From: Blattabacterium cuenoti
Lineage (GTDB): Bacteria > Bacteroidota > Bacteroidia > Flavobacteriales > Blattabacteriaceae
Length of the DNA: 64,000 nucleotides
Direction: 5' to 3'
Assembly: GCF_014251315.1 (NCBI RefSeq)
Contig: NZ_CP059185.1
Span: 205,017 to 269,016, forward strand
The translations under genes were made by a program, and so were the position numbers. Positions 23,593 to 64,000 of the stretch are shown here, piece after piece (the stretch's first letter is position 1; each line of letters begins with the position of its first letter). The notes under the pieces are model-generated. The model saw only the letters and a program-made list of their open reading frames with translations. It searched no databases and had not been told where the DNA came from.

Positions 23593-24255
23593 ATGAATCA
23601 AATAGTAGAAAATAGATTTTTTAGTTTAAAAAAATTAATTCCAAAAGATGTAAAAATTTTGGCGGTTTCTAAAAACCAAGATACTTCTTCCGTGGAGAAA
23701 TTATATAGAGTAGGACATAGAGATTTTGGGGAAAATTATATTCAAGAAATGGTAAAAAAATATAAAAAATTACCCAAAGATATTCGTTGGCATATGATTG
23801 GTAGAATTCAAAGTAACAAATTAAAATATATAATCCCCTTTATTCATTTAATTCATAGTATTCAAAATATAAAACAAATTAATACAATAAATAAAATAGC
23901 ATCAAAACATCATAAAATTATAAACTGTCTTTTACAAATAAAAATTTGTGATGATAAAAATAAATCAGGAATTACTTGTCAAGAGGCTTCTAAAATATTG
24001 GAAAATGAAGCTTTTAAAAAAATGAAAAATGTAAAAATAATAGGCTTAATGGGAATAGCTTCTTTTCAAGAACTAACAAAAGTTCATAATGAATTTTCAT
24101 ATTTACGTAAATTATATGATGAATATCAAAATAAATATGGACATTATATACTTTCTATGGGTATGAGTAGAGATTATAATATAGCTATAAAATATGGAAG
24201 CACAATTATTCGATTAGGTACTATAATTTTTGGAAATCGAAAAAAAACTATCTAA
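23593..24255 (+). CDS. yggS: YggS/PROSC family PLP-homeostasis protein
   Basis: Members of this family bind pyridoxal phosphate without known catalytic activity and keep B6 and amino-acid pools balanced. Seen here: KILAVSKNQD with the PLP lysine (Lys27), DFGENYIQEMVKK, WHMIGRIQSNKLK, LLQIKICDDKNKSGI, GLMGIASF, LSMGMSRDYNIAIKYGSTIIRLG. The length of 220 residues is normal. It directly follows serC, a PLP enzyme. The stop overlaps the convergent trpA stop by 8 bases. Confidence 0.92.
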   Translation: MNQIVENRFFSLKKLIPKDVKILAVSKNQDTSSVEKLYRVGHRDFGENYIQEMVKKYKKLPKDIRWHMIGRIQSNKLKYIIPFIHLIHSIQNIKQINTINKIASKHHKIINCLLQIKICDDKNKSGITCQEASKILENEAFKKMKNVKIIGLMGIASFQELTKVHNEFSYLRKLYDEYQNKYGHYILSMGMSRDYNIAIKYGSTIIRLGTIIFGNRKKTI

Positions 24256-25015
24256 TAGATTTTATATATTTTTTTATGCTTTCTTCCAATTTATTTTTAT
24301 CCAATGATTGAATAAAAGAACTTCCAATGATTCCACCATTAGCATATTGACATGACAAATCAAAAGTCTTTTTATCTTTTACACCAAAACCAATCAATCT
24401 TGGAATATTTATAGATAATTTTTTAATACGTTCAAAAAAAGATATTTGTTTTTTTCCAAAAGGATTAACACTTCCTGTAGTAGAAATAGAAGAAACTATA
24501 TATAAAAATCCATCACTGATTTTACTTAACATGTATATTCTATCCGAATCAGTTTTTGGAGTAATTAAAAATATCATAGATAACGAATATTTTTCAAATA
24601 TATTTTGATATTTATGCAAAAAAATATCAACTGGAAGATCCGGTAAAATTAATCCAGAAATACCTGATTTCTTGCATCTTTTCAAAAATTTATCTTTTCC
24701 AAATTTATAGAATTGATTATAATATCCCATAAGAACAATAGGAATTGTTATTTTTTCTTTAAATTTTTCTATTTGATCAAATAATAAAGAGATGTTCATT
24801 CCATTATTTAACGAAATTTGATTACTTTTTTGGATCATCATTCCATCTGCTAAAGGATCAGAATATGGAATTCCTATTTCAATTAAATCTACAGAAAGAT
24901 TTTGCAAAATTTTTATAATTTCTACTGTACTATTTATACAAGGAAATCCTGCTGTAAAATAAATGCATAATATATCTTTTTTCTTTTTTATAAATAAATT
25001 ATGTATTTTATTCAT
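24248..25015 (-). CDS. trpA: Tryptophan synthase alpha subunit
   Basis: TrpA cleaves indole-glycerol phosphate and channels indole to TrpB. The barrel shows YFTAGFPCINSTVEI, VDLIEIGIPYSDPLADG with the catalytic Glu and Asp residues, LILPDLPVD and a C-terminal phosphate-binding segment (IGFGVKDKKTF, then NGGIIGSSFIQSL). The length of 255 residues is slightly short but complete. It is the last gene of the trp operon; its start overlaps the trpB stop by 8 bases. Confidence 0.96.
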   Translation of the reverse strand: MNKIHNLFIKKKKDILCIYFTAGFPCINSTVEIIKILQNLSVDLIEIGIPYSDPLADGMMIQKSNQISLNNGMNISLLFDQIEKFKEKITIPIVLMGYYNQFYKFGKDKFLKRCKKSGISGLILPDLPVDIFLHKYQNIFEKYSLSMIFLITPKTDSDRIYMLSKISDGFLYIVSSISTTGSVNPFGKKQISFFERIKKLSINIPRLIGFGVKDKKTFDLSCQYANGGIIGSSFIQSLDKNKLEESIKKYIKSIR

Positions 25016-26201
25016 GATTTAATAATCTAACAAAAAATTTTTCGTAAACATTAATATCTTTATCCCCTCTTCCAGATAAAGTCACAACTACTATATCCTC
25101 TTTTTTAAAAGGTATTTTTTTTAATGCAGCTAATGCATGGGCACTTTCTAAAGCAGGAATAATTCCTTCTGATCGCGTTAATTCATATCCTGCTTTTAAA
25201 GCTTCTTCATCTGTAGAATGTAAAAAATTTACGCGTTTTTTTACAAAAAGATTGGCAAACATAGGGCCAATTCCTGGATAGTCTAAACCCGGAGAGATAG
25301 AATGTGCAGGTAAAACTTGACCATCTTTGTCTTGTAAAAGGAATGTCATACTTCCATGTAATATTCCTTTAGATCCACAATGAATAGACGCAGCTGTTTT
25401 TTTTGTTGTAATACCTAATCCTGCGGCTTCCACAGCTACAAGATTAACAGAATCGTTTTCCAAAAAAAAATAAAAAGATCCTGCAGCATTGCTCCCTCCT
25501 CCAATACAAGATATCACATAATTAGGGTAAGAAGTCCCTTCTACTTCTTTTAATTGTATTTTAATTTCTTCACTTATAATAGATTGAATATCTGCAACCA
25601 TTTGAGGATAAGGATGAGGACCCACAGTAGAACCTATTAAATAATAACTTTCTGGATGATTGATCCAATAACGAATAGCTTCATTCACAGCATCTTTTAA
25701 CGTTTTATTTCCACTTGATACTGGAATGACTTCAGCTCCAAGAGATTTCATTCTTATAACATTACTATATTGACGGATCATATCTGTTTCACCCATAAAA
25801 ATAGTGCATTTTAAATGCATTAATGCACAAACAGTAGACGTAGCTACTCCATGTTGACCTGCCCCCGTTTCTGCAACAATTTTTTTTTTACCTAATTTCT
25901 TAGCTAATAAAGCTTGACCTATAGCATTGTTGATTTTATGGGATCCTGTATGATTTAGATCTTCTCTTTTAAGATAAATTTTAGCATTATATTGATCAGA
26001 ATATTTTTTGCAAAAAAATAAGGGAGTCGGTCTTCCTACATAATTTTTTAACAATTTTTTATACATTTTTTGATATTCATAACTTGTAATGAATTTTTTA
26101 TATTTATATTGTAGTTCTGTTATATTATGATGCAACATTTCAGGGATAAAAGATCCTCCAAACTCTCCATAATATCCATTTTTATCAACAAAATATTTCA
26201 T
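25008..26201 (-). CDS. trpB: Tryptophan synthase beta subunit
   Basis: TrpB joins indole and serine. The PLP lysine is in NHTGSHKINNAIGQALLA; AETGAGQHGVATSTVCALM, the phosphate loop GGGSNAAGS and VVTLSGRGDKD are all present. The length of 397 residues is typical. The ATG overlaps the trpF TGA by 4 bases. An intact in-frame run of ten A (plus-strand T at 25880-25889) encodes part of LGKKKIVAETG; this matches the length of the tract that disrupts trpF immediately upstream. Confidence 0.97.
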   Translation of the reverse strand: MKYFVDKNGYYGEFGGSFIPEMLHHNITELQYKYKKFITSYEYQKMYKKLLKNYVGRPTPLFFCKKYSDQYNAKIYLKREDLNHTGSHKINNAIGQALLAKKLGKKKIVAETGAGQHGVATSTVCALMHLKCTIFMGETDMIRQYSNVIRMKSLGAEVIPVSSGNKTLKDAVNEAIRYWINHPESYYLIGSTVGPHPYPQMVADIQSIISEEIKIQLKEVEGTSYPNYVISCIGGGSNAAGSFYFFLENDSVNLVAVEAAGLGITTKKTAASIHCGSKGILHGSMTFLLQDKDGQVLPAHSISPGLDYPGIGPMFANLFVKKRVNFLHSTDEEALKAGYELTRSEGIIPALESAHALAALKKIPFKKEDIVVVTLSGRGDKDINVYEKFFVRLLNHE

Positions 26202-26823
26202 AATTTTCTTATTTTTTTCATAAATACATTTAACTTTACATTATCTTTTTTTCCTGGAAAAACTTCAAATTTGCTATTCACATCGATTCCAAACATTTTT
26301 GAATGCGAAAAATTTTTTATTTCATCAAAATCTTGTATTCCAATTCCTCCACTTAAAAAAAATGGAACTTGAAAAGTGTATTCATGAAGTTTTTTCCAAC
26401 AAAATTTTTTTCCGCTACCCCCATAATAAATTGTATTGCTATCAAATAAAAAATAAGTACAGAAAGGAATATAATCTACAATTTTTTCAAAAGAAAAAAA
26501 ATTATCTATTCTAAAACATTTAATTAATTTCAATCCTTTTTTAAATAATTTTTCACAATAAAAAGGATTTTCTGTTCCATGCAATTGAATAAAATCTAGT
26601 TTTTTTATTTTTTTTATTTTCAGTATATTTTCCTCTAATTCGTTTACAAAAACACCTGTTTTTAATATTTTTTTTTTATATTGGGAATAACGAAATCTAA
26701 ACCTACAAATCTAGGAGAATTAGGATAAAATATAAACCCTATAAAGTCAGGTAATAGATCCGAAATTTTTTTTATGTCAAATTTCATTCCGCACACTTTG
26801 ATTTTCAATAATTTAGATTTCAT
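26198..26823 (-). CDS. trpF: Phosphoribosylanthranilate isomerase, interrupted by a one-base frameshift in a poly(A) tract
   Basis: TrpF isomerises phosphoribosylanthranilate in tryptophan synthesis. The first frame starts at 26823 (MKSKLLKIKVCGMKF, then DFIGFIFYPNSPRFVG) and stops at 26662 just past a run of ten A on the minus strand (plus-strand T at 26668-26677). The second frame continues to 26198 with TGVFVNELEENILKI, FIQLHGTEN, PFFLSGGIG and FGIDVNSKFE, all typical TrpF elements. Adding one A restores a single frame of about 209 codons with no other defect. Placement between trpC (10 bases upstream) and trpB (4-base overlap) is exact. It could be a sequencing error, a recent mutation, or a gene read by polymerase slippage; good conservation on both sides of the break argues against an old pseudogene. 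Confidence 0.85.
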
Positions 26824-26833
26824 ATGAATTAAT

Positions 26834-27637
26834 TTAGTCTTTTTGATTAAGTCTCTTTGACAAAGACTCTATAAAATATTTACAGATTTTTCCAGGATCT
26901 TTTTTTCTCATAAAATATTCTCCAATTAGAAAACCTTTAAATCCTTGTTTTCTTAATTTGAATATGTGATTCACATCATCAATTCCACTTTCTGCAATTT
27001 TTATATAATTATTAGGAATTTTTGAAGATAATTTTAAACAATTATTATAATCTACAATAAAAGTTTTCAAACTTCGACTGTTAATTCCTATAATGTCAGA
27101 ACTTTCTGTTATTTTCTCTATTTCAAATTCATTATGAATTTCAATAATAACTTCTAAATCAATACTTTTTGCAAGTTTAGAAAAGTCTGATATTTGATTT
27201 TTAGAAAGAATTCCGGCTATCAATAAAATGACATCAGCTCCTATGGATTTAGATTCTATAATTTGATATTCATCAATAATAAAATCTTTTCGTAATATAG
27301 GAACAGAAACTATGGGACGTGATTTTTTTAAATTTTCGTTTTTACCAGAAAAAAAATGTTTTTCTGTGAGTATAGATATTCCACAAACTCCTGCTGATTC
27401 ATAATCTTTTACCACTTTTTCTACTGATTCCGTATTATTAATAATACCTTTAGATGGAGATTTGCATTTAAATTCTGCAATGATACCAGTATGGCTAGTT
27501 TTTATATTCTTTACTAAAGAAAGAGTTTTCCTTTCAAAAAAGGAACTATTTTCTAATTTTTTTACAGGACATACAATTTTATTCTTGTAAACCTCTTTTT
27601 GTTTTACATACACAATTTTTTCAAGAATATTCATCAT
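26834..27637 (-). CDS. trpC: Indole-3-glycerol-phosphate synthase
   Basis: TrpC closes the indole ring. The barrel shows GIIAEFKCKSPSKGII with catalytic lysine and ring-contact residues, GISILTEKHFFSG, PILRKDFIIDEYQI with catalytic lysine, IGINSRSLKTF and IAESGIDD. The length of 267 residues is normal. The ATG at 27637 overlaps the trpD stop by 4 bases. It is a single-function protein here, separate from trpF. Confidence 0.96.
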   Translation of the reverse strand: MMNILEKIVYVKQKEVYKNKIVCPVKKLENSSFFERKTLSLVKNIKTSHTGIIAEFKCKSPSKGIINNTESVEKVVKDYESAGVCGISILTEKHFFSGKNENLKKSRPIVSVPILRKDFIIDEYQIIESKSIGADVILLIAGILSKNQISDFSKLAKSIDLEVIIEIHNEFEIEKITESSDIIGINSRSLKTFIVDYNNCLKLSSKIPNNYIKIAESGIDDVNHIFKLRKQGFKGFLIGEYFMRKKDPGKICKYFIESLSKRLNQKD

Positions 27638-28632
27638 AAGCTCAATAATTTTTTTAGAATATTCTTTGCCTTTCCACTTTTTAATGAATGCTTGGCTTTA
27701 TCATAATTGTTTTCAAAACTATCTTGGTTTAACAAACTTAATGCAAATGTAGCATTTGTTAAAACAACTTCATTTTGAGATAAAGTTCCTTCTCCAGATA
27801 AAACACTAATAAATATACGAATATTTTCTTCTGTATTTTTCCCTCCTTTCAATTCGTCTGGATTGACTCTAATTTTTTTCCCCCCTATTTCTAATTCTTC
27901 TATAGAATAGAATCGTTCTCCTTTTGGGGTATAACATTTGATATCACTAGTTAGTGTGATTTCATCGTATCCATCTAAACTATGAACAATAGCGTAATTG
28001 TTATTTGTATTTTGATACATATAATAATAGATTCTTGCTAATTCCAAATTATTGACTCCTAACAATTGATTTTTTGGATTACCCGGATTTAACAATGGAC
28101 CAAGTGTATTGAAAATAGTTCTAACTCCTAGTTCTTTTCTTGCTATAGATATAGTTTTCAATATAGGATGAAATATAGGAGCATGTAAATAACAAATTCC
28201 TACTTTTTCCAATTGATTTTTTAAATTTTCTTCTTTATTAGTAAAATGATATCCTAATCCTTTTAATATATTTGAAGATCCAGTAGTGGAAGAAGAATTA
28301 AAACTTCCATGTTTAATTACTTTTTCTCCTGTTCCTGCTACTATAAAACATGCTAAAGTGGAAATATTAAAAGTATTTTTCCTATCTCCACCTGTTCCTA
28401 CAATATCAATGGCATTAAATTCTGTAAGGTTAATTTTTATAGATAGTTCCATCATGGCTTGTTTAAAACCTATTATTTCTTCCAAAGTGGGTGTTCTCAT
28501 ATTATATATGGTAGCTATAGCTATGACTTGTGTATTATTTATTCTCCCTTCTGATAATTCTATAAAAAGATTCTTAGCTTCCTGTTTTGTTAATGTTTTT
28601 TCTAAAAACAGATTTTCTAATATTTTTTTCAT
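27634..28632 (-). CDS. trpD: Anthranilate phosphoribosyltransferase
   Basis: TrpD transfers phosphoribose from PRPP to anthranilate. Seen: DIVGTGGDRKNTFNIST (PRPP loop), VIKHGSFNSSSTTGSSNIL (matching the family KHGNR/SSxSGSAD loop with substitutions), IFNTLGPLLNP, and a C-terminal alpha/beta domain. The ATG at 28632 gives 332 residues and leaves 2 bases after trpG; a longer ATG at 28653 would overlap trpG. The Asn/Ser changes in the substrate loop are within what A+T drift could give, and I judge the enzyme functional. Confidence 0.95.
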   Translation of the reverse strand: MKKILENLFLEKTLTKQEAKNLFIELSEGRINNTQVIAIATIYNMRTPTLEEIIGFKQAMMELSIKINLTEFNAIDIVGTGGDRKNTFNISTLACFIVAGTGEKVIKHGSFNSSSTTGSSNILKGLGYHFTNKEENLKNQLEKVGICYLHAPIFHPILKTISIARKELGVRTIFNTLGPLLNPGNPKNQLLGVNNLELARIYYYMYQNTNNNYAIVHSLDGYDEITLTSDIKCYTPKGERFYSIEELEIGGKKIRVNPDELKGGKNTEENIRIFISVLSGEGTLSQNEVVLTNATFALSLLNQDSFENNYDKAKHSLKSGKAKNILKKLLSL

Positions 28633-28634
28633 AA

Positions 28635-29210
28635 TTAATTTAAATTCAACCAATTATATATTATTTTTTCACCATACGGTGTTAAAATAGATTCTGGATG
28701 AAACTGTACTCCACGTACATCATAAAATTTATGGCGTAAAGCCATAATTTCACCTTTATCTCCAATAGCTGTAATTTTAAGTTCTTCAGGAAAATTATGT
28801 GGAGATATAATCCATGAGTGATAACGTCCAACTTTGATCTTTTTTGGTAATTGTTGAAACAAAATTTCTTGTGGATCTACAATTTTAATCAAACTAGATA
28901 TTCCATGATAAACCTCGCTTGTATTTAAAAGAGTAGCTCCAAACACTTCTCCTATCGCTTGTTGACCTAAACAAACCCCAAAAATACTTTTAGTAGAAGA
29001 AAAAGTTTTTATTAAAGGTTTTAAAATATGCGCTTCATCAGGGATTCCAGGTCCTGGAGAAAGAATGATTTTATTATATTTCTCAACATCCGATAGTTGA
29101 ATTTCATTGTTTCTAGATACTTGTATAGGATTTTTTGTTAATTTTTTTACAGCATGAACAAGATTATAAGTAAAAGAATCATAATTATCCAAAATTAGTA
29201 TTTTGTTCAT
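28635..29210 (-). CDS. trpG: Anthranilate synthase component II (glutamine amidotransferase)
   Basis: TrpG supplies ammonia to TrpE. The class I amidotransferase shows LDNYDSFTYNLVHAV, ILSPGPGIPDEA, the nucleophile motif FGVCLGQQAIGE and VQFHPESILTPYG with catalytic His and Glu. The length of 191 residues is normal. It lies between trpE (6 bases) and trpD (2 bases). The same chain may also serve para-aminobenzoate synthesis if no separate PabA exists; that cannot be judged here. Confidence 0.95.
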   Translation of the reverse strand: MNKILILDNYDSFTYNLVHAVKKLTKNPIQVSRNNEIQLSDVEKYNKIILSPGPGIPDEAHILKPLIKTFSSTKSIFGVCLGQQAIGEVFGATLLNTSEVYHGISSLIKIVDPQEILFQQLPKKIKVGRYHSWIISPHNFPEELKITAIGDKGEIMALRHKFYDVRGVQFHPESILTPYGEKIIYNWLNLN

Positions 29211-29216
29211 AATACT

Positions 29217-30626
29217 TCATATATTTTTAGCTAATTCTATAGCTTTAAATAAGGCCATAAGTTTATTGTTCACTTCTTCCAATTCTTTTTCTTCTTTAGA
29301 ATCAGAAACAATCCCTGCACCAGCTTGAAAAAATAGAGTATTATTTTTACTTACAAAAGAACGAATAATTATGGCTGTATTAATACAAGAATTTTGTAAT
29401 CCAAAAAAACCAATTGCACCTCCATATACTCCTCTATGTTGATTTTCAATTTTGTCAATTAGTTCCATAGCTTTATACTTAGGAGCTCCAGAAAGTGTTC
29501 CTGCAGGAAAAGTGTCTCCGAACACTTTTATCATTGAGGTATTTTCTTCTAACTCTCCAGAGACTTTAGACACCATGTGTAACACATGAGAAAAAACTTG
29601 TATTTCTTTAAATCCTTCTACTTTTACATTAGAAGAGTTTTTACTAAGATCATTTCTTGCTAAATCTACTAACATGACATGTTCTGCATTTTCTTTTGGA
29701 TTCTTTGCAAGATTTTCGGATAATTTTTTATCCTTATCTTCATTTCCTGATCTTCGTATTGTTCCTGCTATTGGATTAATATAAGCTCTTTGGTTATTAA
29801 TAATGAGTTGTGATTCTGGAGAAGAACCAAATAATTTATAATTTCCATAATCAAAATAAAAAAGATATGGAGAAGGATTTATAAATCGTAAAGCTCGATA
29901 TACATTAAATTCATCTCCTTTAAATTTTTGTTGAAATTGACGAGATAATACTATTTGAAAAACATCTCCGCGTAGACAAGCTTTAATTCCTAAAGATACC
30001 ATTTTTTTGTACTCTATATCTGTTACATTTGAATAACGATTTCCAACAGGTTGAAATGGGAAAGATGAAAAATTTTTCTTTTTGATCAATTTTATCAATT
30101 GATTTATGTAAGTTTTTTCTTCAAAATCAGGAAATTGATGTTCAATTAAATATATTGCATGATGAAAATGATGAAAGACTATTAAATTTCTATAAAAACC
30201 AAATCGTATTTGTGGAAGATTATATATTTCTTTAATTGTAGTATTCAATTGAATATTTTCAAAATATTGAATACTATCATAAGATATATATCCATATAAA
30301 CCTGAGTATGAAATAATGGTATTTTCACTTTCAAATTTTTGAAAAAAATCTTCAATTAAAATTTGAATATCTAATTTGTTGTTTATAAAAATGTGTTTGT
30401 GAACACAATTAGGATATGATATTCGTAATACATTTTTATCTAAAATAAGTTCAGAAATAGGATTTATACAAAGAATAGAAGAATTATTTTTTGAAATTTG
30501 ATAGTCAGAAGATTCTAATAATAGTGTATTAGGAAAAATATCTCTTAGTTTTAAATATAATTCTATTGGTGTAGTACTATCAGCCAAAATTTTTTTCTGA
30601 ATAGTTCTAAAATTAAATTTAAACAT
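29217..30626 (-). CDS. trpE: Anthranilate synthase component I
   Basis: TrpE makes anthranilate from chorismate, the committed step to tryptophan. The C-terminal chorismate-binding domain shows VLSRQFQQKF, INPSPYLFYFDYG, INPIAGTIRRSG, HVMLVDLARNDL, FPAGTLSGAPKYKAMELI, GGAIGFFG and FQAGAGIVSDS. The N-terminal segment keeps the LLES motif (residues about 36-39) used for tryptophan feedback inhibition in this family. The length of 469 residues is normal. It is the first gene of the operon, behind a structured leader. Confidence 0.97.
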   Translation of the reverse strand: MFKFNFRTIQKKILADSTTPIELYLKLRDIFPNTLLLESSDYQISKNNSSILCINPISELILDKNVLRISYPNCVHKHIFINNKLDIQILIEDFFQKFESENTIISYSGLYGYISYDSIQYFENIQLNTTIKEIYNLPQIRFGFYRNLIVFHHFHHAIYLIEHQFPDFEEKTYINQLIKLIKKKNFSSFPFQPVGNRYSNVTDIEYKKMVSLGIKACLRGDVFQIVLSRQFQQKFKGDEFNVYRALRFINPSPYLFYFDYGNYKLFGSSPESQLIINNQRAYINPIAGTIRRSGNEDKDKKLSENLAKNPKENAEHVMLVDLARNDLSKNSSNVKVEGFKEIQVFSHVLHMVSKVSGELEENTSMIKVFGDTFPAGTLSGAPKYKAMELIDKIENQHRGVYGGAIGFFGLQNSCINTAIIIRSFVSKNNTLFFQAGAGIVSDSKEEKELEEVNNKLMALFKAIELAKNI

Positions 30627-62928: not shown

Positions 62929-64000
62929 ATGAAAAAAAAATTCATAATTGTATTAGGTGGAGGAGAAAGTGGAGTAGGCGCAGCTTTACTAGCTAAAAAA
63001 AATGGATTAAAAATATTTTTATCGGATTCTGGAATGATTCTAAATAAATATAAAAAAATTTTAGTAAGAAATAGAATTCCTTTTGAAGAGAAAGGACATA
63101 CAGAAAATATAATTATTCGAAACGCTATTAAAGTAATAAAAAGTCCTGGAATTTCTTCTAAAAAGAATCCTTTGATAAAAAAAATTGATTTTTTGGGGAT
63201 TCCTATACAATCCGAATTAGAATTCGGTAAAAGTTATATCGAAAACTCCTATGTTATCGGAATTACAGGAAGTAATGGAAAAACAACAACTTGTTCTATT
63301 ATTTATAAAATTCTTAAAAAAAAAGGAATGAATGTAGGAGTAGCAGGAAATATTGGACATAGTTTTTCTAAAGAAGTCATAAAAAAAAAGATGTTTATAT
63401 ATTAGAAATGAGTAGTTTTCAATTAGATGATTGTTTCAATTTCCGTACAAATATTGCAGTATTATTAAACATAACAAGAGATCATTTAAATAGATATGAT
63501 GATATTGAAAATTATATTGATTCCAAATTTAGAATAGCAACTTTTCAAAAAAAAGAAGATATTTTCATTTATAATCATGATGATCCTATTATAAGAAAGG
63601 GGTTAAAAAAATATCCTGTTATATCTCGTTGCATTCCTTTTTCTATAAAGGAAGAATTACATATGGGGGCTTATATAAAAGATCAAAAAATATTTATTCG
63701 AAATCAAAAAAATCAAGAAATATATTTTCTAAATGTGAAAGATATTCCTTTAATAGGAGATCATAATTTATATAATATTCTAGCTTCATTAATTATATCC
63801 GAAATATTAAACGTAAAAAAAGAATTAATAATTTCTATACTATTAAAATTAAAATCTATAGAACATCGTATGGAAAAAATACTAAATATGAATGGAATAC
63901 AATTCATTAATGATTCTAAAGCTACTAATGTTAATGCAGTTTTTTATGCATTAAAAAGTATGAATGCACCTATTATATGGATAGCTGGAGGAGAAGACAA
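62929..64000 (+). CDS. murD: UDP-MurNAc-L-alanine:D-glutamate ligase, frameshifted in a poly(A) tract and cut by the window end
   Basis: MurD adds D-Glu to UDP-MurNAc-L-Ala. The first frame (62929-63405) shows IIVLGGGESGVGAALLAKKN, VIKSPGISSKKNPLI, GITGSNGKTTTCSIIY and VAGNIGHSFSKEV, then hits TAG right after nine A (63381-63389). One more A continues the protein as DVYILEMSSFQLDDCF, LLNITRDHLNRYDD, IPLIGDHNLYNIL, IEHRMEKI and FINDSKATNVNAV to the window end with no further break. All MurD motifs lie on both sides. It follows mraY by 11 bases. As this step is essential and the rest of the pathway is intact, slippage rescue or a sequencing error is more likely than loss. Confidence 0.88.

Follow-up and report, generated by a model that had tools for sequence, protein, structure and literature searches.

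In Buchnera and Blochmannia, transcriptional slippage rescues genes that are frameshifted in poly(A) tracts (Tamas et al. 2008, as described in PMC5009743 and PMC3017870). Corrected transcripts amount to 12-50% for cell-wall genes of the aphid symbiont and for a histidine gene of the ant symbiont (PMC5009743). Blochmannia carries 4-8 frameshifted genes per genome (PMC4389277, Table 1), including homopolymer frameshifts that are shared between species and selectively maintained (PMC3017870, PMC4389277); ancient maintained frameshifts in this genus were described by Wernegreen, Kauppinen and Degnan in 2010, as cited in PMC4389277. Slippage in bacterial A/T runs, in both E. coli and Buchnera, leads mostly to insertion, and 151 of 157 insertions but 16 of 57 deletions in Buchnera were located in homopolymers (PMC5574713).

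The DNA analyzed here, a stretch of 64,000 nucleotides (the window), corresponds to bases 205,017-269,016 of a genome assembled as one contig of 633,448 bases. Its size and gene content identify the source as Blattabacterium, the fat-body symbiont of cockroaches. This genome (G000) was compared with 48 further genomes of the genus (n = 49). The window contains a trpF gene that is split over two frames at an A10 tract, and a sequence-only reading of the same DNA had proposed that the gene is rescued by slippage as in Buchnera and Blochmannia, a precedent with which the literature cited above agrees. We assign a probability of roughly 0.6 to the reading that the contraction from A11 to A10 is real, that full-length TrpF is rescued via RNA polymerase slippage, and that Blattabacterium has a set of such genes to which trpF belongs.

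The trpF frame break

The trp operon (trpE-G-D-C-F-B-A) spans positions 24248-30626 of the minus strand, with every gene except trpF open, and trpF itself occupies 26198-26823. Its zero-frame part (26662-26823, minus strand) begins with the ATG at 26823 and ends after 53 amino acids with the TAA at 26662-26664, just past the A10 tract (26668-26677, T10 on the plus strand), where the minus strand reads ...ATT CCC AAT ATA AAA AAA AAA TAT TAA and the frame is one A short. The downstream-frame part (26198-26671, minus strand) consists of 157 codons with no stop and matches positions 52-192 of the Pfam PRAI profile (1.3e-23). Over 155 codons, this frame has no stop, versus 18 and 15 stops in the two alternative frames. 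Addition of one A to the tract yields 208 amino acids followed by a stop, and this joined TrpF aligns end to end with the single-frame trpF products of relatives, with identity up to 85%. These results reproduce the position of the early stop given by the sequence-only reading, its restored TrpF of about 209 codons, and the conserved blocks on both sides of the tract. The other six trp genes, which it had called intact, each have an open frame and a family match.

Across the genus, trpF is present in 44 of the 49 genomes, and the identical 44 have trpB. The remaining five have none of trpF, trpB and trpC, so that the tested trp genes are kept or lost together. The single trpB-like match in G026 comes from a weak paralogue, which the other genomes have too. 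The trpF site is read in one frame by 42 of the 44 trpF-bearing genomes, usually with a shorter or interrupted run, and the source genome lacks exactly one base there, with A10 in place of a fitting A11; the break is therefore more than chance. The second exception, G046, is out of frame at the same codon site and in the same direction, with A9 where A10 would fit. In a tree of six proteins, G046 is the sister of in-frame G019 with full support, and the closest neighbor of the source genome, weakly supported, is G044, which is in frame. Since the two are placed apart, the simplest reading of the tree is that this site contracted twice independently. The break is limited to one species in each of the two lineages, and the trpF lesion may be recent.

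A recent lesion could also be that of a young pseudogene, in a pathway that is dying or in which another isomerase stands in. The five genomes without trpF, trpB and trpC fit such a course, as does the loss of tryptophan synthesis in the symbionts of Cryptocercus and Mastotermes (PMC9603385). However, no genome among the 49 has trpB without trpF, the remaining trp genes of the source genome are open, and no second lesion was found in its trpF. Behind the tract the dN/dS of this gene is 0.19-0.22, as in in-frame relatives, with no sign of relaxation, although such a value would be equally expected for a very young pseudogene. Moreover, essential genes of the genus stably hold the same kind of lesion, as described below. 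We consider a pseudogene improbable, at well under one chance in eight.

Several other arrangements of the trp genes were observed. In G042, no stop separates trpF from trpB, and the two form a single open frame of 619 amino acids (junction ...FIKKNKRIMKYFVDKNGYYGEFGG), and G045 shows a putative junction of this kind in a frame of 618 amino acids; these are possible TrpF-TrpB fusion proteins, as judged from the frames. The trpB of G010 (G010:C1:203153-204305) is split in two and contains four stop codons, a decaying pathway beside a trpF that is still readable. A TrpB search of genome contigs matched distant bacteria alone.

An older break in murD and breaks in other genes

Comparison of the window with four relatives revealed a single further clear break, in murD (62929-64000, plus strand, running past the window end; TIGR01087 for the intact orthologue). 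This gene is split over two frames at an A9 tract (63381-63389, plus strand) that is one A short. The gene is broken at the same codon in 23 of the 49 species, and, compared with in-frame copies, all 23 lack one base modulo three. Twenty of these species fall in one clade of 24. Three of the other four members (G042, G030 and G044) have a longer, in-frame run, and the fourth, G046, keeps the short run and regains the frame through the loss of two bases shortly downstream. On the tree, the murD break requires a minimum of 8 changes, versus 16.5 on average when the labels are shuffled. The preferred reading of this distribution is one old loss in the clade, followed by four restorations, and three separate losses elsewhere. 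The part of murD downstream of the break is under normal purifying selection: in three close pairs of species with the break (G015/G016, G021/G033 and G005/G028), dN/dS is 0.13-0.33 behind the break and 0.09-0.16 ahead of it, and the intact murC genes of these pairs give 0.16-0.38.

A survey of a 20-kb cell-wall stretch in all 49 genomes showed that rsmH, mraY, murC, ftsA, ftsZ and hisS are full length in 49/49. Breaks at runs of A9-A11 occur there in murG (five species, including the source of the window), murE (three), lptG (two), ftsL (one) and ftsW (one), and tgt is broken at a T11 run in one very reduced genome. An 80-kb stretch compared in ten genomes added breaks of the same kind in nadD, topA and two genes that we take, from their sequences, to be lipB and ftsK. 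Survey matches that lay at gene starts or in apparent rRNA genes were treated as artefacts and left out. Among 48 genomes, nadD, a gene of NAD synthesis, is in frame in 11, short by one in 29 and short by two in 8. All 37 out-of-frame copies have an uninterrupted run of A10-11 at about codon 44-50; an uninterrupted run of at least ten A's is found in 37/37 out-of-frame copies versus 4/11 in-frame copies. The frame of topA is wrong in 13 of the 37 genomes examined, by one missing base in 11 and by two in 2, and the run in these copies is 10 to 12 A's long. The topA gene of G046 combines a run that is one A short with a 2-nt deletion downstream that restores the frame, as in its murD. The two-short copies of nadD and topA rule out a general deficit of exactly one base at every shift.

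About 150 kb of the source genome were read, and no fewer than five genes in them carry such breaks: trpF (A10), murD (A9), murG (A10), nadD (A11) and topA (A12). By rough extrapolation, some twenty genes of this genome may be affected. Two further irregularities were seen in other genomes. In topA of G044, a codon that is sense in relatives is TGA (GTA ATA TGA TCC) immediately upstream of the tract, either as a second lesion or through an error, and a metal-transporting P-type ATPase gene of G046 (about 12174) is one base short at A8, a shorter run than elsewhere.

These data bear on the question of whether trpF is truly A11 in the genome and was miscounted during sequencing or assembly. An A10 run is a hard tract, the trpF break is confined to G000 and G046, and the five shifted genes of the source genome were each scored short by one. 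On the other hand, 42 internal coding runs of A9-A11 in the same window are in frame versus 2 that are shifted, and an error in trpF is for this reason unlikely, with a chance of the order of one in seven. The murD gene is short at a run of only nine A's, identically across a 20-species clade and in data from more than one laboratory; the murD-broken genome G048, matched to a Diploptera punctata strain, is an Illumina assembly from a separate group (PMC7453276). The second-site 2-nt restorations in murD and topA of G046 require real shifts. For murD, nadD and topA, sequencing error is in practice excluded by clade inheritance, the several laboratories and the second-site restorations.

Run length and a proposed polymerase slippage

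Every out-of-frame copy retains a perfect run, with nine or more A's in murD and ten or more in nadD and topA, and copies of these three genes with shorter runs are always in frame. A plain Fisher test of run length against frame ignores the relatedness of the genomes and gives p-values that are too small. In a tree-based paired test, the association of a wrong frame with a long run was never reversed in direction, with fewer than six informative pairs per site and no significance. Most coding runs of A10 or longer remain in frame, which indicates that the frame does not in general drift freely. A comparison of A with T runs as a test for blind sequencing error was set aside because sense T runs of ten or more are too rare to decide (40 versus 663 for A).

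We propose that an in-frame A11 run of trpF was contracted by one base to A10 and that RNA polymerase slips back on the A run and adds A's, which would generate mRNAs of several lengths. The mRNA fraction with one extra A would encode full TrpF, and the tryptophan pathway would remain intact with a reduced dose of the enzyme; polymerase slippage, the dose and the rescue of trpF itself are what we infer. The set of genes served in this way would include murD, nadD, topA and murG and, in single lineages, murE, lptG, ftsL, ftsW, lipB and ftsK. For several of these genes, the out-of-frame state in the genome is old and stably inherited.

Nearly all runs are short by one. This is predicted by insertion-dominated slippage and equally by -1 ribosomal slippage, which could act instead of or alongside the polymerase. 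The zero frame of trpF contains the slippery heptamer A AAA AAA, with A AAA AAG in murD of the source genome, and nearly all of the shifts need exactly the -1 direction. A single fixed -1 step cannot serve all sites, however, as it does not mend the two-short copies of nadD (8 species) and topA (2), and slippage is thereby favored: a ladder of inserted A's covers both the one-short and the two-short states. Ribosomal frameshifting also lacks a stimulatory structure, since no stable RNA structure was found just behind the trpF and murD sites (z of -0.94 for trpF of the source genome, +0.81 for trpF of G046 and +1.28 for murD); a fourth folded stretch, which proved to be no frameshift site, was left out. 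We regard it as unlikely, at about the same level as a miscount or slightly above.

Restart of translation at an internal start after the stop, giving a split enzyme of two chains, might be suggested by an ATG that lies just past the zero-frame TAG in many murD-broken species. The next start in the downstream frame of murD is, however, 24-130 codons off in G005, G007, G014, G023, G024 and G038, and the first downstream start in trpF (TTG, 26584) would leave out some 28 residues that follow the tract. We give this scheme hardly any credence.

The two-short states of nadD and topA, the lack of a stimulatory structure and the failure of restart together lead us to hold RNA polymerase slippage as the main mechanism, the best fit to the sequence comparison, with a ribosomal share possible. 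Two reports run counter to it: frame-restoring transcription errors are absent from the data of PMC5574713, and for the E. coli polymerase a preference for T rather than A runs is reported (PMC6260861). The rescue put forward by the sequence-only reading thus stands in part. The break in the A run and the retention of function in poly(A)-frameshifted genes of the genus (murD, nadD, topA, murG and trpF of G046) are well supported by comparison, and RNA polymerase as the agent is the best fit. More broadly, the frame of several essential genes may have been genomically wrong over a long part of the genus history and supplied at transcription, with the A run itself maintained by selection; we see this as evenly balanced. 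It would extend, at the same even odds, to nadD in 37/48, murD in 23/49 and topA in 13/37 genomes, with one-short and two-short lengths tolerated in perfect runs of at least A9-10.

Comparison with known systems

The literature searched contains no earlier report of such frameshifts in Blattabacterium, although one may exist outside it. If the frame of core genes is left to slippage over such evolutionary depth, automatic annotation may wrongly call essential symbiont genes dead, and gene-loss counts for symbiont bacteria would be inflated. Both the sequence of events and the cost of slippage can be tested in the series of 49 species, in which the same sites occur in one-short, two-short, restored and in-frame states.

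The kind of event is known already; the phylum, the number of genes and the depth look new. As in the rescued genes of Buchnera and Blochmannia, trpF has a single-base shift in a long A run of an otherwise perfect gene, and biosynthetic and cell-wall genes of an AT-rich insect endosymbiont are hit. The indels likewise fall in A runs of about nine or more (A10 in trpF, A9 in murD), the frames of both genes are otherwise open and conserved, and breaks persist across species in murD, with purifying selection, and in nadD and topA. In contrast, Blattabacterium belongs to the Bacteroidota, and its breaks are read from genome sequences. The A-run slippery site also resembles that of dnaX-type programmed slippage or frameshifting, but the Blattabacterium sites have no evident regulatory second product and no stimulatory structure was found at them. 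The ancient frameshifts of Blochmannia are similar in that breaks are common to several species and the genes are not decaying. Those of Blattabacterium differ in being shared by 20 to 37 species, in their second-site restorations, and in losses at a single site that amount to one A or two.
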